Source: Hyphobacterium sp. CCMP332 (GTDB taxonomy: Bacteria; Bacteroidota; Bacteroidia; Cytophagales; CCMP332). From it: 64,000 bases of DNA. The stretch spans positions 2,024,001-2,088,000 of the forward strand of contig CP058647.1 in assembly GCA_014323545.1 (NCBI GenBank). The letters are read 5' to 3'. A model generated the notes under the pieces. It worked only from the letters and a program-made list of their open reading frames with translations, was not told where the DNA came from and searched no databases. The translations under genes were made by a program, and so were the position numbers. Below, piece by piece: positions 472 through 43,420 of the stretch (position 1 is the stretch's first letter; every line of letters starts with the position of its first letter).

Positions 472-3276
472 TTAATGTGCTTCCAACCAATTGAGGCCGG
501 TACCCATACCAATTTCCATTGCCACTTTCATAGGAATGGCATTTTTCATTATATCCTCTACCTTGTTCTTTAAGCTGTCTAATTCATTTTTGTAAACATC
601 AAAAACCAATTCATCATGAACCTGAAGAATCATTTTTGATTTCATTTTCTCTGATTTCATCCAGTCATGGATTTTTATCATTGCGACTTTAATCATATCT
701 GCAGCAGATCCTTGTATGGGTGCATTGATAGCATTTCTTTCAGCAAAACCTCTTTGAGTCTGGTTTCTGGAATTAATATCTCTTAAATAGCGTCTCCTGC
801 CTAAAATCGTCTCCACGTATTCATTTTCCCTGGCGCTGTTAATGATATCGTCCATGTATTTTTTAACGTTGGGAAATTCATTAAAATAAGCTTCTATAAG
901 TGCTGCTGCTTCTTTTCTTGGGATATTTAATCTTTGGGAAAGACCAAATGCAGAAATTCCATATATGATCCCGAAATTGGCAACTTTGGCCTTTCTTCTC
1001 ATATCGGAATCAACTTTATTCAATTCGACTTTAAATATTTTACTTGCAGTGGTGGAGTGAATATCAATGCCATTTTCAAAAGCATCGAGCATACTTTTAT
1101 CTTCGGCAAAAGCGGCCATTATCCTCAATTCAATCTGAGAATAATCTGCAGATAATAAAATGTGTTCATTATCTCCGGGAATAAATGCCTTTCTTATTTC
1201 CCTCCCTTTTTCAGTCCTGATAGGAATATTCTGTAGATTGGGGTTTGTTGAACTCAATCGTCCGGTAGCAGCAACTGCCTGATTGTAAGAGGTATGAATT
1301 CTACCATCTTTTTGACTAATTAATTCGGGAAGGGCGTCAACATAAGTTGATTTTAGCTTTTGATATTCCCGAAAATCAAGTATTAAGGAAGCAATTTCGT
1401 GATTATTTGCAAGTTGAGATAGTATTTCTTCACCTGTTGCATATTGACCCGTCTTTGTCTTTTTGGGTTTTTCAACAAGTTTCATTTTATCAAATAAAAT
1501 TTCACCAAGTTGCTTTGGTGAAGCTATATTAAATTCTGCTCCTGCAATTTTAAAAATCTTATCCTGCGTTATCTGAGCTGCCTTACCCAGTTCATCAGAA
1601 ATTTCTTTTAATGTTCCACGGTCCACTTTAACTCCCGATACTTCCATATCGGATAAAACCTTTACCAATGGGGTTTCTACCTCATTAAATAATTTTTCCT
1701 GATTATGTGACTTGAGCTCTCGTTCCAGTTTGTATTTGAGTTGGAGAGTGATATCAGCATCTTCCCCGGCGTATTCTGCAACCTCTTTAGGGTCAGCATC
1801 ACGCATATTGCCTTGATTTTTTCCCTTTTTACCGATCAATGTTTCAATGGAGACCGGTGTATAATTCAGATAGTTCTCGGACAGGGCATCCATATTGTGT
1901 CTGGAATCCGGTTCAATTAAATAATGCGCAAGCATAGTATCAAATAATGCCCCTTTAACCTCAATTCCGTAGGTCAATAAAATTGTAATATCATACTTTA
2001 GGTTTTGTCCTATCTTTAAAATCCTTTCATTTTCAAAAATCTCTTTGAATTCGCTTAATATTGATCTGCAATCATCCTGATCCTGAGGCATTGGAATGTA
2101 ATACGCTTCATGGGCATTGTAGGATATAGCCAGCCCTACTATTTCGGCCTCAAAGGCATTGATGTCTGTGGTTTCTGTATCAAAACAAAACTCCTCCTGT
2201 CTTGATAGAAATCGAATAAGATTTTTTCGTTTGGATTCAGAATCAATGAGATAATATTGATGTTTTACAGTTTGAATATTCTCTTTTTCCGGTGATATTT
2301 TTAATACTTCCTCGGATTCGGATGGCATAAACATATCAATCTGATTTTCATCTGATTTTTTCTTAGAAGAGGAACTTGAATTACCTGAATCACCTTCATC
2401 GCCAAAAAGTCTTTTTTTAGTTGTTCTGAATTCAAGCTCATCAAGGAGAGCAATGAGTTGCTCATTGTTTGGTTCGTTATGACGTAAATCTTCTTCGTTA
2501 AACTCAATTGGAACATCTACAGCAATAGTTGCAAGCTTTTTAGATAAAATACCCTGCTCTCCAAACTCAATGACATTTTCTTTTTGTTTTCCTTTTAATT
2601 CATCAGCATGTTCGACGAGGTTTTCAACAGAACCGTATTGTTGAATGAGTTTTTTTGCGGTTTTTTCACCTATTCCAGGAATTCCGGGAATATTATCAAC
2701 ACTGTCGCCCCAAAGTCCCAGGATATCTCTTACCTGATCGGGATTTTCGATTTCCCATTTTTTGATAACTTCCTTTTCACCCAATACCTCAACGCCCTTA
2801 CCCATAAAAGCAGGCTTGTATAAATATACGTGTTCTTCTACCAATTGGCTGTAGTCCTTGTCGGGAGTCATCATGAACACTTCGAAACCCGCTTTTGAGG
2901 CTTTTTTTGCCAGTGTGCCAATGACATCATCGGCTTCGTATCCATCAATTCCATAAAGTGGAATATTGAAGGCTTCAACCATTTTAATCACAAATGGGAT
3001 GTTACTTTCGATATCTTCAGGTTGTTCCTGTCTATTGGCCTTGTAATCGGTGTAATCCTTATGTCTAAAAGTTGGCGCTTTGGTATCTATTGCCACAGCA
3101 ATATGAGTGGGCTTTTCCTTTTGCAAAATTTCTAAAAGAGAATTTGTAAAGCCATAGGTAGCTCCTGTATTTACTCCTTTGGAATTTATTCTTGGATTTT
3201 TACTGAAAGCAAAATGAGCTCTATAAATCAAGGCCATTGCATCCAGAAGAAACAGTTTCTTTTCAGGCTTCGACAT
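472..3276 (-). CDS. polA: DNA polymerase I
   Basis: Full-length 934-residue polymerase for repair and Okazaki fragment processing. The N-terminal 5'-3' exonuclease domain (about 1-290) carries acidic motifs such as GYEADDVIG and GDSVDNIPG. A Ser/Lys-rich linker follows. The 3'-5' proofreading domain (about 345-530) looks active: DTE in the first exonuclease motif, NLKYD in the second and YAGEDAD in the third. The polymerase domain has motif A (SADYSQIELR) and motif C (QVHDELVF, near residue 885). It starts one base after the end of the upstream lipoprotein gene and is probably co-transcribed with it and gpmA. Confidence 0.97.
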   Translation of the reverse strand: MSKPEKKLFLLDAMALIYRAHFAFSKNPRINSKGVNTGATYGFTNSLLEILQKEKPTHIAVAIDTKAPTFRHKDYTDYKANRQEQPEDIESNIPFVIKMVEAFNIPLYGIDGYEADDVIGTLAKKASKAGFEVFMMTPDKDYSQLVEEHVYLYKPAFMGKGVEVLGEKEVIKKWEIENPDQVRDILGLWGDSVDNIPGIPGIGEKTAKKLIQQYGSVENLVEHADELKGKQKENVIEFGEQGILSKKLATIAVDVPIEFNEEDLRHNEPNNEQLIALLDELEFRTTKKRLFGDEGDSGNSSSSSKKKSDENQIDMFMPSESEEVLKISPEKENIQTVKHQYYLIDSESKRKNLIRFLSRQEEFCFDTETTDINAFEAEIVGLAISYNAHEAYYIPMPQDQDDCRSILSEFKEIFENERILKIGQNLKYDITILLTYGIEVKGALFDTMLAHYLIEPDSRHNMDALSENYLNYTPVSIETLIGKKGKNQGNMRDADPKEVAEYAGEDADITLQLKYKLERELKSHNQEKLFNEVETPLVKVLSDMEVSGVKVDRGTLKEISDELGKAAQITQDKIFKIAGAEFNIASPKQLGEILFDKMKLVEKPKKTKTGQYATGEEILSQLANNHEIASLILDFREYQKLKSTYVDALPELISQKDGRIHTSYNQAVAATGRLSSTNPNLQNIPIRTEKGREIRKAFIPGDNEHILLSADYSQIELRIMAAFAEDKSMLDAFENGIDIHSTTASKIFKVELNKVDSDMRRKAKVANFGIIYGISAFGLSQRLNIPRKEAAALIEAYFNEFPNVKKYMDDIINSARENEYVETILGRRRYLRDINSRNQTQRGFAERNAINAPIQGSAADMIKVAMIKIHDWMKSEKMKSKMILQVHDELVFDVYKNELDSLKNKVEDIMKNAIPMKVAMEIGMGTGLNWLEAH

Positions 3277-4730: not shown

Positions 4731-7700
4731 TTATTTGGATTTCACGATTCTTCTGACTATCGTCGTATTCTTAGTTTCAATTATTATAAAGTACAAGCCC
4801 GGAGATGAGGACTCCAAATTGATTTGATTTTCCTTATTCAATTCTGCTTTGTACAAAGTTTGACCATTGACATCAGTAATTTCTAAATTGCCTGATGGCC
4901 TTTTGTCAAAATCTACATGAATAAAATCGTTAAATGGATTTGGATAAACATTGATCTTTAAATTCGCAGCAAGATCGTAGAATACAGAAATTACTCTGGA
5001 ATATTCGAAGCTGCCATTCGCGTCTATCTGTTTAAGTCTATAGTAGTTTTCACCTTCGTACAGATCATTATCAATTACAGTATAATTTAAAACTTCATTT
5101 GAATATCCCGCGGCATCCACACTTTGAATAGAGATCCAATCGAAACTTGAACTACTTTTTTCTACATTAAAATGTGATGTGTTTTTCTCATTAATAGTTT
5201 TCCAGTTAATTAGTACCTCATCATTTATCAATTCGGCATTAAAGGCAATTAACTCCAGAGGTAGTGGAGCACCGGCACTGGCACCTATAGCAAATTTTGA
5301 AAAAGTAGTATAACCTGTTCTTTGAGCAAAACCATTGCCGGCATCATAAATTCTTCCTGCGGAATCCAATGGAGGCATCAATGTTGTTCCTGCCAATGCA
5401 TCCCATTCATTGTAATTCGTTGAAGCAGAAGGTCTTTTCAAAATGGTAAAAGCATTATCCAAAGTTCCGTTCAAACCGGTGATATTTTCAACATGAAGAC
5501 GCAAGCCATAACTTCCACCACTTATTGCACCCACCGGATTTATATCCCATTCTGCATCTTCAAAGATATTTACTATTGCCGGACCATCTGAAGCTATTAC
5601 CGGATTTAAATTTCCATCCACATTATTTCCAACTTCATTAATGGTTGATACCGATACTTCCAATGCACTTATTCCCGCTGCATTATTATTGATAAATTCC
5701 ATGAGTTGATAATCTACTGAATTGCCACCTGTTCCAACCGGGAAAGGTATGGTATCGGTATTGACCAAAATACTCTTTCTCACTAAGCCTGTAATAAAAC
5801 TAGCGGATGAATACCCTGTAATATCAGAGGGGTCTGTACTGCTTAATATTAGCGTATTTCCATTGGCGTCAACTATTCCATCTGTTAGCGTTAATTGATT
5901 GGAAATGGTTACATCACCGTCAAGGGATAATTGTGGGCCGGTACCGAAACTATTATTGATTTCTACATTGACATAATTAAAGTTATCACCAGCTCCACCG
6001 GTATTTTGAGGGAATGTTTGAGCGTTAGCTGATCCATTAAATTCCAAAGTGGAATTATTATTCATATCCAGGATTCCAAAGTTTGCATTTCTTATAAAAT
6101 CACCCCCAATAGATAATCTGCTATCATTGTTTAATTCAATTTCTGATTCCCCCGAAGCGATTGCAAAAAATTCAATATTGCCTGAAACATCTAAAGTCGA
6201 ATTATCATTTAAGCGTGCTATCAAATTATCGGCACTTGAAAAATCGGTATCGATTATAAGATCACCCCCAATTGAGCCACTGCTATTATCATTAAACAAA
6301 AATTCAAGATCATCTCCTCCTGTATTGCCATTGTGATCTAAATAAACATTCCCCGTCACATTGAGCTGCGCAGTACTTCCTACCGAATTATTTCCTATGT
6401 GAATAAGTATGTCATCTCCACCCTGATGGTTTGCAATTAAATCTCCTGTAATATTGACCTGGGAATTGTCATCAATTAACAAACTCAAATCACCACCAAT
6501 CAATGTCAGCATAGTCAGTGAATCTCCAACATTTAGCTGTGTGCCGACACCATTTACATTTAGAGTAGTGTTTTCTCCTCCATCATCAAGCTCAAGATCT
6601 AAATTATCATTCACTGTAAAACTCACGCCTCCATTAATATTTAAACTTGCATCATCATTTCTTACATCATTTTGTATAAGTAGTGAATTAATAACCACAT
6701 CGCTTGCCGGGCTATTAACATCAAAGCCATCAATGAGGACCACCGAGCTTGTGCCGGGTTCACAATCACATGTTGCTTCACCGATTCCTATAGTAGACCA
6801 GGTACTGCTGTTATTCCAATCTCCATCCAATCTTGCATAAATGTTTATTGGGCTCACGCTAAATCTATAATTGAAATGGTTGATTCCACCACCGTCATTC
6901 GTCGCAATTATTTTAGAAGAACTAAATCCGGTTTCGGCGGGATTTGTAACATTATTGATAATAATATCAAAATTTACCCCTTCAGAAATACCGGTAGGAG
7001 CATTAAAAATTAATGTATCATTGTTCTGTGTAGTAAATGATGAAATCGCCACGCCATTAAAGGTACTTCCAGCCAATGTTGCAGTAGAAAAGTCTCCATT
7101 TGGTAAGACTATTATTATCTGATTGCCTATCGAAATATCAAGTGTTTTGGTGACATCACTTTCTATATTTTGATTGTATGTAAAAACTGTAACTGCAGAA
7201 GGGGAATCATCGGTATTGATCAAGGTAGAATTTTCAAAACAAGAATTAGTAGGAGCAGCTTCCGAGCTTACCCTGACATTATCTATGGTCCAATATTCAT
7301 TAGTGGCATTATTTCGAACCAATGCACGTATTTCAACCTCACAGCCCAATAGATTGTTTGAAACAGCTTTTTCAGGGCCAAAAGGCAAATCATCCTGATG
7401 TGTTCCGTTGATTTCAAAATTTTCCCAACTCGCCCCATCCATGCGATATTGAATTCGAATTGAATCTGTAATTTCCAGGGTACCAAATTCACCGTATTCA
7501 ACTTCCAGTTTTACATTATCATAATTGGAAATATCAATGGTTTCGGTGGTCCAGGCATTTTCAAGAGGTACATTTCTTGCAAGCAGGCCTCTTGCCCCGT
7601 CGATCATATAATAATTTTCAACCCGATACGATGTTCCCGATAAAAGATTTTCTAATGTCCAGTCGATGCCGACATCGTTGGAATTATTGTCCACAGCAAC

Positions 7701-10556
7701 GTTGGCATTATCGGCATAGGTCTCAAAATCTTCAAACCAGATGGAGGCGGGCCCGACGGTATAGCTGTAATTAAAATGGTTGATACCGCCCTCATCGTTG
7801 ACCGCTTCCAGTGAGGCGGTGTATTGATCTTCGGTGGCGGGATTAACGGCACCGATGATAAGGATGTCAAAGGCAGCGCCTTCGGCAACGGTGGAAGGGG
7901 CGAGAAACTCCAGGGTGTCGGAGGTCTGGGTGGTAAAAGCGGCGATGGCGTTCCCGTCAAAGGTACTTCCGGCGGTGGTGGCTGAAGAGAAGTCACCGTT
8001 GGGCAGGACGATGCGCACCAGGTTACCGGCCGAGACGTCCAGGTCAAGCACGCCATCGGCGGGCACGGTTTGAGAAAAGGTATAATCGGAGGCAGCCGAG
8101 GTGCCGGTTTCCGAGACGCTCATGGAGGCGGCGGTGAAACAGGCGTTATTGGTAGCATCCTCAGAGGAGACGCGCACGTTATCAATGGTCCAGTATTCGT
8201 TGGTGGCATCACAGGCGGTGGTGACGCGCACTTCGACCTGACAACCGAGCAGTCCGGTGACCGTGGCTTTTTCAGGACCATTAGGCATATCGTTTGAATG
8301 GAAGCCGTTGTTGAGGCGGATCCAGGCGGCGCTGTCGAGGCGGTATTCGATGACGATGGAATCGGCGGCTTCCAGGGTACCAAACTCCCCGTATTCCACA
8401 TCGATGCGCACATTGTCATAGGCGGAGATGTCAATGGATTCGGTGGTCCAGGATTTAGAGATGCCCAGGCCGGTGTTACGAGCGAGCAGGCCCCGTGCCC
8501 CGTCGATCATGTAATAGTCTTCAACGCGGAAGGAGGTTCCGGTAAAGCCGATGGGTTCAAGGGTCCAGTCGATGCCGACATCGTTGGAATTATTGTCCAC
8601 AGCAACGTTGGCATTATCGGCATAGGTCTCAAAATCTTCAAACCAGATGGAGGCGGGCCCGACGGTATAGCTGTAATTAAAATGGTTGATACCGCCCTCA
8701 TCGTTGACCGCTTCCAGTGAGGCGGTGTATTGATCTTCGGTGGCGGGATTAACGGCACCGATGATAAGGATGTCAAAGGCAGCGCCTTCGGCAACGGTGG
8801 AAGGGGCGAGAAACTCCAGGGTGTCGGAGGTCTGGGTGGTAAAAGCGGCGATGGCGTTCCCGTCAAAGGTACTTCCGGCGGTGGTGGCTGAAGAGAAGTC
8901 ACCGTTGGGCAGGACGATGCGCACCAGGTTACCGGCCGAGACGTCCAGGTCAAGCACGCCATCGGCGGGCACGGTTTGAGAAAAGGTATAATCGGAGGCA
9001 GCCGAGGTGCCGGTTTCCGAGACGCTCATGGAGGCGGCGGTGAAACAGGCGTTATTGGTAGCATCCTCAGAGGAGACGCGCACGTTATCAATGGTCCAGT
9101 ATTCGTTGGTGGCATCACAGGCGGTGGTGACGCGCACTTCGACCTGACAACCGAGCAGTCCGGTGACCGTGGCTTTTTCAGGACCATTAGGCATATCGTT
9201 TGAATGGAAGCCGTTGTTGAGGCGGATCCAGGCGGCGCTGTCGAGGCGGTATTCGATGACGATGGAATCGGCGGCTTCCAGGGTACCAAACTCCCCGTAT
9301 TCCACATCGATGCGCACATTGTCATAGGCGGAGATGTCAATGGATTCGGTGGTCCAGGATTTAGAGATGCCCAGGCCGGTGTTACGAGCGAGCAGGCCCC
9401 GTGCCCCGTCGATCATGTAATAGTCTTCAACGCGGAAGGAGGTTCCGGTAAAGCCGATGGGGTCCAGGGTCCAGTCGATGCCGACATCGTTGGAATTATT
9501 GTCCACAGCAACGTTGGCATTATCGGCATAAGATTCAAAGTCTTCAAACCAGATGGAGGCGGGCCCGACGGTATAGCTGTAATTAAAATGATTGATACCG
9601 CCCTCATCGTTGACCGCTTCCAGTGAGGCGGTGTATTGATCTTCGGTGGCGGGATTGGTAGCCCCGATGATAAGGATGTCAAAGGCAGCGCCTTCGGCAA
9701 CGGTGGAAGGGGCGAGAAACTCCAGGGTGTCGGAGGTCTGGGTGGTAAAAGCGGCGATGGCGTTCCCGTCAAAGGTACTTCCGGCGGTGGTGGCTGAAGA
9801 GAAGTCACCGTTGGGCAGGACGATGCGCACCAGGTTACCGGCCGAGACGTCCAGGTCAAGCACGCCATCGGCGGGCACGGTTTGAGAAAAGGTATAATCG
9901 GAGGCAGCCGAGGTGCCGGTTTCCGAGACGCTCATGGAGGCGGCGGTGAAACAGGCGTAGTCAGCAACGCCAAATCCTTCAACCAAAATATCATCAAAGG
10001 ACCAATATTCATTGGTGGCATCATTTGCAGCAGTAATCCTGATCTCTATAGTGCATCCAAGAATTCCACTAATTGTGGCTGTATCTTGTGATACAACCAT
10101 ATCATCGGACTGGAAACCATTTGTAAAACTTATCCAGGTTCCTCCATCCAGACGGTATTCAATTAAAATCGAATCTGCAGGCTCCAAAGTACCAGTTTCA
10201 TTGTAAAGAACTGATGCACTTACATTTTCATAGGCAGAAATATCTATGGTTTCACTTTGCCATGTTTTAGAAATGCCTAAACCAGTATTTCTGGCTACGA
10301 AAGAGCGAGTTCCATTAATTAAGAATGCATTTTCTACCCGAAATGAAGTTCCGGTCAAACCCATTGCTTCTACTGTCCAATCAATACCTACATCGTTTGT
10401 ATTATTATCAACTGCGACAGTGGCATTATCAGCATACGTTTCAAAACCTTCAGACCAAATTGTGGTTTGAGCAATACTTACTTCAAAGTTTGTATTAAAA
10501 AGTAAAATGAGAATGATAGCTTTAAAAAGCTGCGATTTGGATTTTAAAAAGGTCAA
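4731..10556 (-). CDS. Giant secreted repeat protein with T9SS sorting domain
   Basis: A 1941-residue exported protein. A signal peptide (1-30, ending SIAQ) is followed by four alternating A-B modules. A (about 165 residues, EDFETYADN... to IDNVRVSSE) looks like a MAM or jelly-roll adhesion/carbohydrate-binding domain. B (about 135 residues) runs from CFTAASMSV to NYSYTVGPAS. The module period is 302 residues; modules B1 to the start of A4 (residues 200-967) are almost identical. A G8/beta-helix-like region rich in NINGG, DDNS and NITGD motifs follows (about 1240-1560). The last 75 residues, starting at VYPNPFNDF, form a type A T9SS sorting domain. It is probably a surface adhesin exported by the T9SS encoded nearby; this role is inferred. 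Confidence 0.9.
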   Translation of the reverse strand: MTFLKSKSQLFKAIILILLFNTNFEVSIAQTTIWSEGFETYADNATVAVDNNTNDVGIDWTVEAMGLTGTSFRVENAFLINGTRSFVARNTGLGISKTWQSETIDISAYENVSASVLYNETGTLEPADSILIEYRLDGGTWISFTNGFQSDDMVVSQDTATISGILGCTIEIRITAANDATNEYWSFDDILVEGFGVADYACFTAASMSVSETGTSAASDYTFSQTVPADGVLDLDVSAGNLVRIVLPNGDFSSATTAGSTFDGNAIAAFTTQTSDTLEFLAPSTVAEGAAFDILIIGATNPATEDQYTASLEAVNDEGGINHFNYSYTVGPASIWFEDFESYADNANVAVDNNSNDVGIDWTLDPIGFTGTSFRVEDYYMIDGARGLLARNTGLGISKSWTTESIDISAYDNVRIDVEYGEFGTLEAADSIVIEYRLDSAAWIRLNNGFHSNDMPNGPEKATVTGLLGCQVEVRVTTACDATNEYWTIDNVRVSSEDATNNACFTAASMSVSETGTSAASDYTFSQTVPADGVLDLDVSAGNLVRIVLPNGDFSSATTAGSTFDGNAIAAFTTQTSDTLEFLAPSTVAEGAAFDILIIGAVNPATEDQYTASLEAVNDEGGINHFNYSYTVGPASIWFEDFETYADNANVAVDNNSNDVGIDWTLEPIGFTGTSFRVEDYYMIDGARGLLARNTGLGISKSWTTESIDISAYDNVRIDVEYGEFGTLEAADSIVIEYRLDSAAWIRLNNGFHSNDMPNGPEKATVTGLLGCQVEVRVTTACDATNEYWTIDNVRVSSEDATNNACFTAASMSVSETGTSAASDYTFSQTVPADGVLDLDVSAGNLVRIVLPNGDFSSATTAGSTFDGNAIAAFTTQTSDTLEFLAPSTVAEGAAFDILIIGAVNPATEDQYTASLEAVNDEGGINHFNYSYTVGPASIWFEDFETYADNANVAVDNNSNDVGIDWTLENLLSGTSYRVENYYMIDGARGLLARNVPLENAWTTETIDISNYDNVKLEVEYGEFGTLEITDSIRIQYRMDGASWENFEINGTHQDDLPFGPEKAVSNNLLGCEVEIRALVRNNATNEYWTIDNVRVSSEAAPTNSCFENSTLINTDDSPSAVTVFTYNQNIESDVTKTLDISIGNQIIIVLPNGDFSTATLAGSTFNGVAISSFTTQNNDTLIFNAPTGISEGVNFDIIINNVTNPAETGFSSSKIIATNDGGGINHFNYRFSVSPINIYARLDGDWNNSSTWSTIGIGEATCDCEPGTSSVVLIDGFDVNSPASDVVINSLLIQNDVRNDDASLNINGGVSFTVNDNLDLELDDGGENTTLNVNGVGTQLNVGDSLTMLTLIGGDLSLLIDDNSQVNITGDLIANHQGGDDILIHIGNNSVGSTAQLNVTGNVYLDHNGNTGGDDLEFLFNDNSSGSIGGDLIIDTDFSSADNLIARLNDNSTLDVSGNIEFFAIASGESEIELNNDSRLSIGGDFIRNANFGILDMNNNSTLEFNGSANAQTFPQNTGGAGDNFNYVNVEINNSFGTGPQLSLDGDVTISNQLTLTDGIVDANGNTLILSSTDPSDITGYSSASFITGLVRKSILVNTDTIPFPVGTGGNSVDYQLMEFINNNAAGISALEVSVSTINEVGNNVDGNLNPVIASDGPAIVNIFEDAEWDINPVGAISGGSYGLRLHVENITGLNGTLDNAFTILKRPSASTNYNEWDALAGTTLMPPLDSAGRIYDAGNGFAQRTGYTTFSKFAIGASAGAPLPLELIAFNAELINDEVLINWKTINEKNTSHFNVEKSSSSFDWISIQSVDAAGYSNEVLNYTVIDNDLYEGENYYRLKQIDANGSFEYSRVISVFYDLAANLKINVYPNPFNDFIHVDFDKRPSGNLEITDVNGQTLYKAELNKENQINLESSSPGLYFIIIETKNTTIVRRIVKSK
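7657..9958 (-). repeat. Near-identical 906-bp tandem repeat, about 2.5 copies, GC-rich
   Basis: Two full units and about half of a third, period exactly 906 bases (302 codons), inside the giant repeat gene. Offsets match to the base: for instance 7657, 8563 and 9469 start the same run. Outside these limits the next modules are similar only as protein. Sampled 60-base lines inside the zone contain about 62% G+C, against roughly 32-43% in the flanking parts of the same gene. Confidence 0.95.
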
Positions 10557-10619: not shown

Positions 10620-11828
10620 TTAAAATATGAATCCGGCAAGTAATCCGGTTAATATAATTAGTGGCGAGGGCACTTTGCTGAACATCAACATTAAAAATGT
10701 TATAAGTATAACAAGAAGGTTTACGATGTCCATAAATCCGATATTAATAATATCTACCCCAATAGGTTCAAATAAAATTAATGCAGCTGCCACAACCAAT
10801 CCTGAACTAGCGGCATTAATTCCTTCCAATGAGGCTCTAACCACTCTATACTGTTTTAGTGATTCCCAGAATCGAATAATAAAAAATATCAGAAACGTAC
10901 CCGGTAAGAAAATACCTAATGCAGCCATTGTAGCTCCTAGTATTTCACCTCCAATGCCCAATTCCCTAAGTGAAAGTGCACCTACAAATGCGCTAAAACT
11001 AAAGACAGGTCCGGGAAGCGCCTGAACCATTCCATAACCGGTTAGAAATTCTTCTGAACTTAAATAGTGTTTAAACTCTACAAATTCTGTGTGTAAATAT
11101 GGTATCAAAACTTGCCCACCTCCAAAAATCAAACTTCCATTCCTATAAAAATTTTCAAAAATTAGAAGTGGTTTATAGGCAAGTAGATTACCCAATAAAG
11201 CGGCCAGAATTAATATTCCAAGATATAGGATGAAGTTTTTCCAGTCAATATTTAATTTTTCTTTCTCATCCTGCTTTGGTTGCTGCTGAAATTTCATGGC
11301 GGTAATAACTCCACCCGTTAAAAGTAAAATCGGAAATACCCAAGGGGAACGTATGAAATAACTGATTACAGCTGCAATCACCATTAAAGCCCCGCCGAGT
11401 TTTGTGTTTATTACTTTTGATGAAATCACATAAGCTGCGTAAGCTACAAAGCCCACTGCCATTGGCTGAATAAATCTCGCAAACTCCATTGAGCGCTGAT
11501 TTTCATCCAGGTAGGAAATTAAAACACCTGCAGCAGTCATAATGGATACTGCAGGGAAAATCCAAACTAAAAGTGTCAGGTAAGCTAATGTTGCACCACC
11601 TTTTTTATATCCTATAGCTGTAATGGTTTGGGTCGAGGTAGGACCAGGAAGAATCTGACACAGTGCAAGCAATTCTAAAAGTTCTTCTTCGGTAACATAG
11701 CCCCGTTTTTCCACAAATTGTTTTGTGAACAGCGCTATATGTGCTTGAGGACCCCCAAATGCGGTCAGTGAAAGGCCGAGTACATCTTTAAGAAAAATAA
11801 AATATCTGAAGTCCCTTAGCTTGGCCAA
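10620..11828 (-). CDS. chrA: Chromate transporter family (long-chain CHR) membrane protein
   Basis: A 402-residue membrane protein with two homologous CHR halves. The first half has FGGPQAHIALF and ILPGPTSTQT. The second has FGGGQVLIPYLHTEF followed by GYGMVQALPGPVFSF. These GGP/GGGQ and PGP signatures define the ChrA family, whose characterised members export chromate. Many homologues have not been tested, so the substrate is inferred. About ten hydrophobic segments are visible. It follows the oxygenase gene by three bases and is probably the last gene of that leftward run. Confidence 0.9.
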   Translation of the reverse strand: MAKLRDFRYFIFLKDVLGLSLTAFGGPQAHIALFTKQFVEKRGYVTEEELLELLALCQILPGPTSTQTITAIGYKKGGATLAYLTLLVWIFPAVSIMTAAGVLISYLDENQRSMEFARFIQPMAVGFVAYAAYVISSKVINTKLGGALMVIAAVISYFIRSPWVFPILLLTGGVITAMKFQQQPKQDEKEKLNIDWKNFILYLGILILAALLGNLLAYKPLLIFENFYRNGSLIFGGGQVLIPYLHTEFVEFKHYLSSEEFLTGYGMVQALPGPVFSFSAFVGALSLRELGIGGEILGATMAALGIFLPGTFLIFFIIRFWESLKQYRVVRASLEGINAASSGLVVAAALILFEPIGVDIINIGFMDIVNLLVILITFLMLMFSKVPSPLIILTGLLAGFIF

Positions 11829-12836: not shown

Positions 12837-13502
12837 TCAATTGTGAACAACTTCTCTTAAAACATTAATTGATCTGAATGCTCCAAAGTTATCTAAATGA
12901 TATTGGTAGTACCTAATTAATAATTCCAACAATTGAAATCTATCAGCTCCCTTAAGGGGCATTTGATTAAAATTTATAAGCTTTTCAACAATTTTGGATT
13001 GCCGGGTATCCATTAGAACACCGGCCGAATTAAAGTCTTTTAGTTGGTTTGGAGCAAAACCTAGAAATGAACTTAACTTCAACATAAAATCAATATGAAA
13101 ATCCTCAATATGGTCTTTAATTTGATCAAACAATGCAATCTGCTCAACCAAAAAATTGAACTTAGCGGAATTCGCACTTTCTTCTTTTAGACATTTAATC
13201 AGCAATTCAGCCAGAAACATTGCGATAATAATTTTAAAAGGATGAAATGGAATACTCCTGAATGGAAGGAACAGCTTTAATTCTGAAATACGCTGAATTT
13301 CTTTGTTTTGATTTTCATAAACAACCATTTCCAAAATATTCAGACTTTGAAAATAGGCCATTTTATTGCCTTTTTTACTACTTTTTACGCTGTTGACTAT
13401 ATAGGATCTAAGGCCAAATTCTTCTGTATAAACCTTAGCTATTATCGAGTTTTCCTTATAACTGATATAGCCTAAAACAATTCCGCGTGTCTTGTGAAGC
13501 AT
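12837..13502 (-). CDS. recO: DNA repair protein RecO
   Basis: A RecO-family recombination mediator, 221 residues. The N-terminal OB-fold begins with KTRGIVLGYISYKENSIIAK, the usual opening of bacterial RecO, and a helical C-terminal domain follows. With RecF and RecR it loads RecA on SSB-coated DNA. No cysteine cluster for zinc is visible in the C-terminal part. Its ATG overlaps the last base of the porZ stop codon, which suggests translational coupling. Confidence 0.9.
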   Translation of the reverse strand: MLHKTRGIVLGYISYKENSIIAKVYTEEFGLRSYIVNSVKSSKKGNKMAYFQSLNILEMVVYENQNKEIQRISELKLFLPFRSIPFHPFKIIIAMFLAELLIKCLKEESANSAKFNFLVEQIALFDQIKDHIEDFHIDFMLKLSSFLGFAPNQLKDFNSAGVLMDTRQSKIVEKLINFNQMPLKGADRFQLLELLIRYYQYHLDNFGAFRSINVLREVVHN

Positions 13503-15814
13503 TATTCAATAATAGCAAATTTTGTATTGCAGAATTCTTCACCATCTTCCGTCGTAGTTAGAATATAATATACGCCTGATTTCGGTTTTGTATTGTTGTA
13601 GGATCTAAGATTCCAGGTAATTGAATTCCCTGTTGCTGTCTGCTCATAAAACAACTTCCCGCCATTGTCAACAATCTTTACTATGGCATTTTGTGGAATA
13701 TTATAAACACTTAAGTTTCCCTGATATCCGGGTTTTACAGGATTGGGAAATACTTTTATATCATCGCAAACACTATTTGAACTCGTAGCTGTACCACGAT
13801 AAGATACAATTCCATCATTGGTTGCAAAAAAGACTTCCCCGTTTTGTTCATTGATTTCGATATCTACGATTCTGTTGCTTATCAAAGGGCTGTTATCGAC
13901 TGTAAAATTAGCGATTACGTTTGTGCCATCCGGTTCAAATAACCACACACCGTTATTTGTTCCCACCCATTTTCTATTAGCCGGATCTACTTCTATTGAT
14001 GTTATTATCTCCTCGCGCAATAAAGGTCTGTTTTCAAAAATGGGAGTACTGGCATCAACATTTCCACCTTCAAAAATTCTATCAGGATTGAAAAATACTG
14101 CGACTCCATCATTGGTTCCAACCCAAATATCTCCGTCAAGATCAATTGCCATATCATTTACAGCATTGGTTGGAAGGTTGCCATTTCCTTCTGCCGCATT
14201 CAAACTTCTTATTTGATTTTCTTCTTCATTAAACACAATTATACCTCCGGTGATATTAATTACTCTACACCAAATGTTGTTGCCTTCGTCTGTCAGCATT
14301 TGATCAATACGATCGAGATTTTGAGCAGAAAAAGGAAGTGTTCTCCATCCATTTTCCGGACTGTAAAAATTAATTGGCGTCGGCGATTCATTATTTGCCA
14401 GCACTAGTTCACCCTCCTGATTTTCGGTCATTGCGGTAACTCGCGTAGAGGCAAAACCATCCAAAATGTTAAATAATGTGGAGTTATTCGAATTAAAAAC
14501 CTGAAAAGAGTCTGAATTATATTGCAACAGAACTCCATATCCAATTGATCCCAGTGCCAGTAAATTGGCGGATTTATAAAAGTAGGGTTCGTAAAGATCA
14601 AGAAGGAATTTCCCTATATTTTTAGTATTTGGCAGCTCCTTCGGTAAATAATTAATCCATTCTCCATTTTCATAAATAGAATATCCAAAATCGTTTAGTT
14701 GTTGTGTAAAATTTGTCTTTCTTCCTCCCGATGTCACCACCAGCATTCCATCATTATAGGCCATACGGGCTACAAGATTCTTAAATGGCCCATTTGGATT
14801 ATAGAATTCATATTCACCGCTCAGATTTGAAATAAGACCTCTGTCCGGCGAAGAAATCCAATATTTCCCGTTTTTATCTATTAGAAAATCATCAGGAGTT
14901 GGAAAAATTTCAAGCTCGGATATTGTATTGCTAAAGGTGTCAGTGGCATTCCACAATTGGACATTATTGCCTGTTATCAATATAAATTGATCCTTGATAA
15001 TTTTAAGCTTTTTTATTTGACTTCCCAGTCCGGGCATTCTTTCCTGCCATTTCCCGGATTCATATTGCCATAACTCGGCAGAATTGCTATTGTTTCTTGC
15101 TACAAATATTGAATTGTTAAAGGAAACTAAATCCGAAAAATTATTTTGAGGAACACTGTCAGCAGAAACAAACAAACGCCAATTATTTACATCTTGTAAA
15201 TTGACTGAACTATTATAAGGAGCCTGCATTATTCCCTGGGATGTAGACAAATAAATGCTGTCGCCATTTGTATCCACGGTGCTGGCATAAATTTCAATTT
15301 GACTGTTATTTCCAAGTCCAAGATTTCTGTAATCTTCAGCGACTTCAATTTTCCTCAAATCTAATTTTACCAATCCAAACGAACAGGAGAGAAAAGCAAA
15401 ATCTCCATCAATGGATATGTGATTAATTCTTTTGGAACCAACAATTGCAGAAGATTGAATTATCGCATCGATGTTTATTATATAACCATCGCTATCCACT
15501 AGGTCTATATTACCGCTTTCATATGCTATTATTAAAGTAGCTAGTGCTTTATGATATTTTAACACAGAAATCCTGTTATCGTTTAGCCCTTGAATTTTAC
15601 TTATTTTATCAAATATTCCGGTCTTAGGATCTACTCTAAACAATCCATTTTCTGAAGCTGCATAAATGTAATTATTGGTTTCTTCTATCGAATTTATTTG
15701 GTAATAAGAAAAATGCGTCCTCCAGCTTCCAACGGGAATATTTGATTGTGCCGAGATTTTTGAAAATCCAAGGCAATTCAGGATAAATAAAATACTTAAA
15801 AAAGTATATTTCAT
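13502..15814 (-). CDS. porZ: T9SS component PorZ-like (beta-propeller protein with sorting domain)
   Basis: An exported protein of about 770 residues. I start at the ATG of MKYTFLSILF, which gives a clean signal peptide ending KISAQ; a longer reading frame continues upstream but would run into tdk. The mature N-terminus has VGSWRTHFSY, ENGLFRVDPK and SGNIDLVD, the hallmark of PorZ, followed by two-component-regulator propeller repeats such as DIWVGTNDGVAVF and KWVGTNNGVWLF. The C-terminal 80 residues (DDIKVFPNPVKPG onward) are a T9SS sorting domain. In Porphyromonas gingivalis PorZ is part of the surface attachment complex. Naming is by sequence pattern. Confidence 0.85.
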   Translation of the reverse strand: MKYTFLSILFILNCLGFSKISAQSNIPVGSWRTHFSYYQINSIEETNNYIYAASENGLFRVDPKTGIFDKISKIQGLNDNRISVLKYHKALATLIIAYESGNIDLVDSDGYIINIDAIIQSSAIVGSKRINHISIDGDFAFLSCSFGLVKLDLRKIEVAEDYRNLGLGNNSQIEIYASTVDTNGDSIYLSTSQGIMQAPYNSSVNLQDVNNWRLFVSADSVPQNNFSDLVSFNNSIFVARNNSNSAELWQYESGKWQERMPGLGSQIKKLKIIKDQFILITGNNVQLWNATDTFSNTISELEIFPTPDDFLIDKNGKYWISSPDRGLISNLSGEYEFYNPNGPFKNLVARMAYNDGMLVVTSGGRKTNFTQQLNDFGYSIYENGEWINYLPKELPNTKNIGKFLLDLYEPYFYKSANLLALGSIGYGVLLQYNSDSFQVFNSNNSTLFNILDGFASTRVTAMTENQEGELVLANNESPTPINFYSPENGWRTLPFSAQNLDRIDQMLTDEGNNIWCRVINITGGIIVFNEEENQIRSLNAAEGNGNLPTNAVNDMAIDLDGDIWVGTNDGVAVFFNPDRIFEGGNVDASTPIFENRPLLREEIITSIEVDPANRKWVGTNNGVWLFEPDGTNVIANFTVDNSPLISNRIVDIEINEQNGEVFFATNDGIVSYRGTATSSNSVCDDIKVFPNPVKPGYQGNLSVYNIPQNAIVKIVDNGGKLFYEQTATGNSITWNLRSYNNTKPKSGVYYILTTTEDGEEFCNTKFAIIE

Positions 15815-15845
15815 GGCTTGAGAACGCGACTTATACCGTCTTATT

Positions 15846-16424
15846 TTACTCATCGAGATTGAAACAAGCGCGACATCTAGCCTGGTATTCATCGGATGCT
15901 CCAAGCATAACAGTTTTATTAGACTTCTTAATGCGATATGAAAATGAAGCCAGACTTCCACAGCGCACACAAATGGCATGAAGCTTTGTAATAAATTCTG
16001 CATTAGCCATTAACTGAGGCATTGGACCAAAAGGATTACCCATATAATCTTTGTCCAAGCCCGCTACAATTACTCTCTTACCCTCATCGGCAATGGTTTT
16101 GATAATATCGATAATTTCTTTGCTAAAAAACTGGGCTTCATCAATGGCAATTACCTGGGCATCTTTTGATAATTTAAGAATGTCATTCTCATTCTCGATA
16201 ACTATTGACTCCATTTCACTTTCATCATGCGAAACAACTTTTTTTTCATGATATCTTTTATCCAAAGAAGGTTTAAACAATTCTATTTTTTGTTGTGCAA
16301 TTTTAGCACGACGCAAACGACGCATAAGCTCTTCTGTTTTACCGGAAAACATGGGTCCTGAAACCACTTCTACCCATCCCGAATTGGCAATTTCGCTATC
16401 CTGAAAAAAAGGTTCTGTAAACAT
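15846..16424 (-). CDS. tdk: Thymidine kinase
   Basis: A type II thymidine kinase that phosphorylates thymidine for salvage. The P-loop GPMFSGKT is at residues 23-30, DEAQFF with catalytic Glu96 follows, and the zinc-binding cysteines 152, 155, 184 and 187 are all present. The 192-residue length is normal for the family. It lies two bases after the ferredoxin gene and 31 bases before the chosen start of porZ. Confidence 0.96.
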   Translation of the reverse strand: MFTEPFFQDSEIANSGWVEVVSGPMFSGKTEELMRRLRRAKIAQQKIELFKPSLDKRYHEKKVVSHDESEMESIVIENENDILKLSKDAQVIAIDEAQFFSKEIIDIIKTIADEGKRVIVAGLDKDYMGNPFGPMPQLMANAEFITKLHAICVRCGSLASFSYRIKKSNKTVMLGASDEYQARCRACFNLDE

Positions 16425-42487: not shown

Positions 42488-43420
42488 ATGAAAACCTTAG
42501 GTAAATTAATATTATCACTTTTTATAATTGTAGCAATGAGCGAATTCTCCTTTGCTCAGGAGAATATAAACTCAGGTTATAACGACTTGTCTGTACGACC
42601 AATACATTCTTCGGACATTATGTTTAAGAAAAGAGTGTGGAGAAGAATGGACCTAAGGGAAGTTCAGAATTCGGCTTTCTTTTCCAATGGAAGAGAATTG
42701 ACTCAATTAATTGTAGAGGCGGCTAAGAAAGGAATTGTACAACCGTATGAAGCAGATACATTGGGTACACCTATGTCAATGGAACAATTCCTTGAAAACC
42801 TGACTAACCCTGCAATTGAAGGGTTTGCATCAGAAGAGGAAGAGGAAGACCCAATGTCAGATCCAAATGATCCATTCGGTGATCCTAACGATCCGTTTGC
42901 CGATCCTAATGATCCATTTGCCGATCCGGGAGGAGAAGCACCTGCATCTGATCCTGATGACCCATTTGCTGAAGAAGGCGGAGGTGAAGACATGTCGATT
43001 GATCCTTATTATCTGCCCAGAGAGCTGTTTATCATTGAAGTTCAGGAAGATGTTATTTTCGATAAAAAAAGATCGAGAATGTATTATGACATTCTGACTT
43101 TTAAATTAATTGTAGATGCATCATTAACACCTGATGGTATTGACAAAACAGTTGCCGTGTTTTCATATACAGAATTGGTAGATAAACTATTTAAGGATAA
43201 TCCTGAAGCAATTTGGTTTAATGATCTTAACTCTGCAGAACATAGAAATTTGCAAGATGCATTTGACTTAAGACTTTTTGCTTCAAGAATAATCAAGGTA
43301 TCAAATACAGATAATAAATTTATCGTGGATATCTACGGACCGGGTAAAGCTAATCTTTATGGTAGTGACTGGTATGAAATGAAGATAATGGAATACGAAC
43401 ACGAGTTGTGGGAGTTCTAG
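42488..43420 (+). CDS. gldN: T9SS ring protein GldN (PorN) with acidic insert
   Basis: A periplasmic protein of 310 residues with a signal peptide ending SFAQ (1-24). Family features are VRPIHSSDIMFKKRVWRRMDLRE, LFIIEVQEDVIFDKKRSRM and the C-terminal GPGKANLYGSDWYEMKIMEYE-type region. It binds GldK to form the T9SS ring. Unusual is an acidic, Asp/Pro-rich insert at residues 116-169 with three DPNDPF(G/A) repeats, which I do not recall as standard in GldN. Last gene of the operon; a strong terminator follows. Confidence 0.93.
   Translation: MKTLGKLILSLFIIVAMSEFSFAQENINSGYNDLSVRPIHSSDIMFKKRVWRRMDLREVQNSAFFSNGRELTQLIVEAAKKGIVQPYEADTLGTPMSMEQFLENLTNPAIEGFASEEEEEDPMSDPNDPFGDPNDPFADPNDPFADPGGEAPASDPDDPFAEEGGGEDMSIDPYYLPRELFIIEVQEDVIFDKKRSRMYYDILTFKLIVDASLTPDGIDKTVAVFSYTELVDKLFKDNPEAIWFNDLNSAEHRNLQDAFDLRLFASRIIKVSNTDNKFIVDIYGPGKANLYGSDWYEMKIMEYEHELWEF
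42860..42922 (+). repeat. Three 21-bp tandem repeats within gldN
   Basis: Three in-frame copies of a 21-base unit encoding DPNDPF(G/A). They differ at synonymous third positions, so they are maintained as protein and not a fresh slippage product. Confidence 0.9.

Follow-up and report, generated by a model that had tools for sequence, protein, structure and literature searches.

A GC-rich, near-identical tandem array within an AT-rich gene for a T9SS-exported protein: possible GC-biased concerted evolution

An AT-rich gene for a T9SS-exported multidomain protein contains an inner tandem array whose units are near-identical to one another and carry a marked rise in GC at synonymous sites. Codon choice is saturated between the inner modules and the outer modules N1 and C4, and the same association of near-identity with raised GC is seen in the arrays of six other species. 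Our first choice of explanation, held tentatively, is GC-biased concerted evolution of the inner array, followed closely by import of the array from elsewhere. The gene lies in a 64-kb stretch of DNA, analysed as a whole and referred to below as the window, of a single-contig host genome of 3.33 Mb that has 37% GC over the 19% examined. The role of biased gene conversion in bacterial base composition is debated, mostly via genome-wide correlations. Arrays in which a single gene carries a domain both as homogenised and as diverged copies offer an internal control for such conversion.

A homogenised GC-rich zone in a repeat protein gene

The open reading frame at 4731–10556 on the reverse strand starts with TTG and encodes a protein of 1941 aa. 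Four units of ~302 aa, each made of an N module (167–169 aa) and a C module (133 aa), are followed towards the C terminus by a region without units and then by a sorting domain that exceeds the cut-offs of TIGR04183 and PF18962 (53.4 bits against a cut-off of 23, and 48.7 against 27). At E up to 0.001 the T9SS sorting domain has 109 matches in the genome, of which two fall below cut-off, and genes of the T9SS machinery (PorZ N-terminal domain, GldM and GldN) lie inside the window. The GldN gene (42488–43420) contains a 21-bp tandem repeat of 3.2 copies at 42860–42927. The neighbours of the repeat gene are polA (472–3276), recO (12837–13502) and a porZ-like gene (13502–16003); no link between them and the array is claimed.

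The predicted structure of one unit had a mean pLDDT of 67.7, the N module being modelled mostly confidently as a beta-sandwich and the C module poorly and with low confidence, so that we assign the latter no particular fold. The N model aligned with the MAM-containing chain 8a28_A (model residues 1–164; Z 13.4, 139 residues, 3.0 Å, 13% sequence identity) and with the gingipain cleaved adhesin domain 4itc (model residues 1–163; Z 11.6, 141 residues, 3.0 Å, 13% identity). It also resembles carbohydrate-binding modules, and sequence identity is 6–16% among the structural matches listed; a PDB sequence search with the module profile gave no match at E up to 1. The N modules are probably MAM/carbohydrate-binding-like beta-sandwiches that alternate with a second beta module (C). 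The whole is probably a long T9SS-exported surface protein, an adhesin, with a binding role suggested by the predicted N fold and the export signal.

Self-comparison at an offset of 906 bp delimited a zone that comprises C1–N2–C2–N3–C3 and the first 28–29 residues of N4; N1, the remainder of N4 and C4 are AT-rich (Table 1). The original prediction had described exact repetition every 906 bases across this zone. The period holds, and 7657–8555 matches 8563–9461 exactly over 899 bp, but 7657–9052 differs from the sequence 906 bp further on at 12 of 1396 positions, all between 8556 and 8757. Likewise, the GC content of about 62% first given from sampled lines of the zone is 0.568 when measured over its full length, and the island of GC-rich, near-identical repeats in an AT-rich gene was itself confirmed: other 2302-bp segments of the same genome have a mean GC of 0.373 (sd 0.024, maximum 0.467; zone z = 8.2; n = 10,086, taken at 50-bp steps and thus overlapping, as do some of the source stretches). 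The best-fitting GC segment of the gene, 7737–9971, has a GC of 0.572 inside versus 0.369 outside (log-likelihood gain 115 nats) and nearly coincides with the zone of near-identity.

The rise is seen at third codon positions. The repeats have a GC3 of 0.68, compared with 0.28 for the remainder of the gene and 0.33 for a genome sample made of the ORFs of twenty 20-kb stretches, and their gain over the remainder of the gene is +0.41. Per-module GC3, a check proposed with the original prediction, sets the inner modules (0.66–0.70) clearly apart from both N1 and C4.

Table 1. Features of the repeat gene in the window, and array genes in other species (coordinates within each locus)
Feature	Position	Strand	Basis
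N-terminal hydrophobic stretch, signal-peptide-like	10467-10556	-	by eye from translation
Module N1, AT-rich, GC3 0.26	9954-10460	-	module comparison
Module C1, GC-rich, GC3 0.70; DNA 98% identical to C2 and C3	9555-9953	-	
Module N2, GC-rich, GC3 0.67; 99% identical to N3	9048-9554	-	
Module C2, GC-rich, GC3 0.70; identical to C3	8649-9047	-	
Module N3, GC-rich, GC3 0.66	8142-8648	-	
Module C3, GC-rich, GC3 0.70	7743-8141	-	
Module N4; residues 1 to 28-29 in homogenised zone, remainder AT-rich	7242-7742	-	
Module C4, AT-rich, GC3 0.27; 47-48% aa identity to C1-C3	6843-7241	-	
T9SS C-terminal sorting domain, residues 1870-1938	4743-4949	-	TIGR04183/PF18962 above cut-off
Homogenised GC-rich zone, period 906, 2.54 copies	7657-9958	-	self-comparison at +906
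Array genes of presumed Flavobacteriaceae; mean array GC3 0.63-0.86	L113 782-4732; L114 1603-4698; L116 2272-4722; L117 74-4705; L118 61-4704		

Inner modules, codon usage and the search for a donor

N2 and N3 share 60–61% of residues with N1 and 70–71% with N4 (65%, or 89/137, beyond the border of the zone). The claim that N1 and N2 share most residues in different spelling was borne out, since 60% of residues are shared and 58% of these use a different codon. At identical residues, codon agreement was 36/97 between N1 and N3 (35.4 by shuffling) and 26/63 between C4 and C3 (22.7 by shuffling, p 0.16), and N1–N4 likewise showed no excess over shuffled codons. N4 and N3 agreed slightly more than expected (41/85 against 34.7, p 0.02; one of four tests), an excess too weak for codon sharing to be used as a test of recent common origin. 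With no agreement beyond shuffling apart from this slight one, the inner units did not arise by fresh duplication of an outer unit. The inner and outer modules are old relatives.

The original prediction had also reasoned that a fresh duplication of a native module would keep native composition. This is supported by two neighbouring T9SS genes of the host genome (C1:418991–422146 and 423460–426615; L144) that share ~3 kb and are 93.6% identical over 3.7 kb. The pair is probably a recent duplication and shows no marked enrichment (GC3 0.31 against 0.27), so that near-identity alone, if recent, is insufficient for a GC rise.

Codon classes responded unevenly in the array. C-ending codons of four-fold families rose from 0.22 in the background to 0.64; in two-fold families, C-ending codons reached 0.47 versus 0.25 and G-ending codons 0.29 versus 0.25. 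Individual fractions were 0.97 for ACC, 0.91 for ATC, 0.79 for CGC, 0.72 for GAA and 1.0 for AAA. Because the rise is not uniform over codon classes, we liken the array to cases of GC-biased concerted evolution in how it works and do not claim that it is one of them. In the host, ribosomal genes and those for elongation factors and RNA polymerase have a GC3 of 0.29, and their codon shift correlates with that of the array at r = -0.25, which makes translational optimisation unlikely.

When native usage was given a single fitted GC tilt (B = 1.6 per G/C base), its fit to the unit was -0.987 nats per codon. The best untilted foreign usage among 89 genomes with at least 1,200 codons, that of G018, estimated from 1,340 codons or fewer, reached -1.007 (an earlier ranking had used 90 genomes with at least 600 codons). 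Two foreign usages plus a tilt fitted slightly better than the native one (-0.970 and -0.976). G018 belongs to the order of the host, in which single stretches of three genomes are GC-rich (G013, 60%; G018, 57%; G028, 58%), and its two-fold codons also have G below C (0.38 versus 0.67). Single stretches of two family mates of the host have 44–46% GC.

Searches for a donor returned distant relatives of the modules. At E ≤ 0.001, matches were present in 2 of the 59 relatives searched; the wider sets gave 22 of 390 genomes for the order, 44 of 395 for the class and 6 of 395 for the phylum. The sets overlap, and the counts include the host's own genome. Profile searches of order, class and phylum yielded only distant module relatives, spread across Bacteroidota; an orthologue of the window gene was found neither in the 59 relatives nor in these wider searches, and the two family mates, the closest genomes searched, had no module match. 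Scans of 84,980 species genomes with a single-protein pattern and an alignment pattern gave 0 and 17 loci, respectively, again distant module relatives only. The single-protein pattern was also run over viral contigs as part of the donor search, and blastn of the repeat against phages and plasmids gave no DNA match. The donor sought among Bacteroidota did not appear in 88 fetched loci with relatives, where no match of at least 80 aa exceeded 47% identity. One of these relatives is a module in G733 (46% over 103 aa; GC3 0.41); C1–C3 are as close to it as to their own C4 (47%), which leaves room for an outside origin.

Arrays in seven other species and the origin of the inner array

An orthologous array in another gene was found in seven species (L109, L112, L113, L114, L116, L117 and L118), which we take to be Flavobacteriaceae; its unit is presumably of a calcium-binding, Asp-rich type. 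Alignment A3 includes neither L118 nor L122, and it leaves out L110, which has a stop in its translated match. In six species, copies from the same gene differ from one another at a mean of 0–21% of identical-residue codons, and these homogenised arrays have a GC3 of 0.60–0.86 against 0.24–0.40 in their flanks. The copies of L112 have diverged (40%); its array has a GC3 of 0.48, compared with 0.33–0.42 in the flanks and 0.46 over the last 70 residues. Diverged upstream repeats of similar look in the Flavobacteriaceae array genes inspected are AT-rich. Across the seven orthologues, the association has a rank correlation of -0.5, which is not significant (p 0.25).

Between species, best-matching copies differ at 22–64% of codons (21 pairs) and the C-terminal flank at 7–58%. 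The arrays have thus diverged about as much as their flanks, indicating that they are not recent imports. C- and G-ending codons both rise in all five of the Flavobacteriaceae arrays checked, as biased conversion predicts. GC tilts of 1.2–2.6 fit six of the arrays; for the L118 array an untilted foreign usage is 0.8 nats better than the native tilt. The direction of singleton changes in four arrays was uninformative (50 S>W at 306 S sites, 33 W>S at 146 W sites). From these comparisons, recombination favouring G/C can account for homogenised GC-rich arrays in Flavobacteriaceae, as recent import does not. A GC-rich island within a repeat gene is by itself no evidence of horizontal transfer. The identity borders of the window array are indeed sharp, as first noted, the right one falling at the N1/C1 domain junction and the left one 28–29 residues into N4, but this is no argument for import, since the borders of the Flavobacteriaceae arrays look about as sharp at 60-codon resolution.

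For the window gene, we tentatively infer biased recombination as the cause. Intragenic recombination, by gene conversion and unequal crossing-over, would keep the two and a half inner units near-identical, and a preference for G/C over A/T would let the inner array gain GC over time. The outer modules would be too diverged for conversion and so would have retained the AT-rich spelling of the host. In this, the inner array may resemble homogenised arrays found in several other members of the Bacteroidota.

Import is a serious competitor that we consider possible, if somewhat short of an even chance. A GC-rich relative with a gene of the same subfamily would have donated the array, or at least 1.4 kb of it, by homologous recombination, leaving a recent foreign segment; the crossovers would lie where N1 meets C1 and within the conserved beginning of N4. 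The unit's GC far above all 10,086 other segments of the genome speaks for such a transfer, as do GC-rich genomes in the same order and the more moderate GC of the family mates. The untilted usages of G018 and G013 come close to the native-tilt model in their fit to the unit, the two-fold codons of G018 share the shortage of G relative to C, the inner modules show no excess synonymous sharing with N1 or C4, and C1–C3 stand equally close to the G733 module and to C4. Against this, no donor came to light, the inner N modules have their nearest relatives in N1 and N4 of the same gene, beyond the border as well as over their full length, and the donor would need the same rare subfamily. The original prediction had offered import and GC-biased conversion side by side: neither is refuted, the evidence for import is indirect, and conversion gains comparative support from the orthologous arrays.

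Two further explanations carry little weight. Selection on codons or DNA properties (expression, mRNA structure or stability) could have raised GC without any recombination bias, and the codon-specific nature of the shift would suit it; the preferred codons, however, differ from those of the ribosomal genes and the shift ends near the edge of near-identity, so that we hold it to be improbable. Even less probable is an assembly artefact, whether a wrong number of units or the inclusion of DNA from a different organism. The identity of inner copies over 899 bp favours it, but both joins are in frame and in register, at places where DNA identity to the outer modules is only moderate, and the genome is a single contig; an error in copy number would in any case leave the GC finding unaffected. 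GC-biased concerted evolution therefore stays our tentative first choice among the four.

Repeat genes at large and known systems

The association was also surveyed with a 24-mer repeat method, a repeat gene being one with at least 150 bp of repeated 24-mers; ORFs with five or more unknown residues were excluded, which dropped the L109 array gene (blastn-based GC3 0.58 versus 0.26). Set A comprised 209 ORFs from 45 loci with distant module relatives, partly chosen because their frames were long. Any gene whose first 60 bases had already occurred in another was dropped, which removed that of L118 and reduced this set from 16 repeat genes (13 up) to 15 (12 up). In these 12 of 15, GC3 is higher in the repeats (median +0.20 over the set, Wilcoxon p 0.0015), several of them being orthologues from related species and thus not independent. 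Set B, the best 40 long CHU_C genes of the listing by domain score and length, gave a rise in 6 of 7 repeat genes (median +0.06, p 0.11). Set C, an independent sample of 40 stretches with SprB domains (181 ORFs), gave 3 of 10 (median -0.02), and the sole repeat gene of set D, 20 arbitrary stretches with 124 ORFs, rose.

Pooled outside the host genome, the 33 repeat genes include 22 with a rise (p 0.005); a shift test on the 33 gave 16 rises (p ≤ 0.05) and 4 falls (p ≥ 0.95). The GC3 gain is larger where the longest exact repeat is longer (rho 0.49, p 0.004, the same 33 genes), with a rise in 13 of 17 genes whose longest exact repeat is at least 90 bp and in 9 of 16 with shorter ones. L126 has a 288-bp exact repeat and no GC3 rise. 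A GC rise in repeat genes is therefore not a general rule: the Flavobacteriaceae loci show it strongly, the SprB set C not at all. A first, blastn-based survey, in which 9 of 9 listed genes rose, had overstated the rule and missed the window gene, whose merged hits fell under the identity cut.

It is conceivable, and rather doubtful than established, that tandem domain arrays in the surface-protein genes of AT-rich Bacteroidota act as natural read-outs of GC-biased conversion, with codons drifting to much higher GC within one protein and lineage for as long as recombination holds the copies near-identical, and with GC being lost once homogenisation stops. If so, the array GC gain of the window gene would be an extreme one. 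The 2015 study of Lassalle and colleagues is said to be genome-wide in scope. It linked recombination to higher GC in bacteria (Lassalle et al. 2015, PMC4450053), and its main text contains none of the terms "repeats", "duplicat", "intragenic" and "paralog". In a preprint on M. tuberculosis, GC content and conversion frequency were reportedly not associated (PMC13061034), so that the general form of the biased-conversion idea is not supported there.

Several known systems resemble the window gene in part. In TALE genes, GC-biased gene conversion has been put forward as the cause of the raised GC of the repeat region (Schandry et al. 2016, PMC4987410). As in the window gene, tandem intragenic repeats are GC-richer than both gene ends, which is explained by frequent conversion, but the contrast is 70% versus 61–65% in GC-rich genes, compared with 57% versus 37% in the AT-rich window gene. 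Borrelia vlsE, with raised GC in a central region, is also mentioned in that paper. Rhs elements of Enterobacteriaceae also combine a GC-rich shared part and an AT-rich unshared part in one gene (PMC2935791). In K-12 rhsA, we found a GC3 of 0.73 where the sequence is shared with rhsB and 0.36 where it is not, with 0.52–0.67 in eight neighbouring genes. Rhs elements are, however, dispersed paralogues with exchangeable tips, unlike the tandem array in a single gene studied here (PMC2935791). Periscope proteins are likewise surface proteins with tandem domains, whose high DNA identity is thought to permit intragenic recombination; they are defined by length variation between strains (PMC8201768). 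The terms "GC content" and "gene conversion" are absent from the main text of that paper. Among the literature matches listed, none dealt with GC-rich homogenised arrays in Bacteroidota.

Other repeat genes with different units occur in two of the Flavobacteriaceae loci, at 11329–14979 of L116 and 13471–15069 of L113, with a GC3 of 0.76 and 0.80 in the repeats versus 0.47 and 0.40 outside them. In the same order as the host, a 957-aa frame at 7072–9942 of L208 has 2375 bp in repeats with a commonest lag of 123, and a GC3 of 0.47 versus 0.38.
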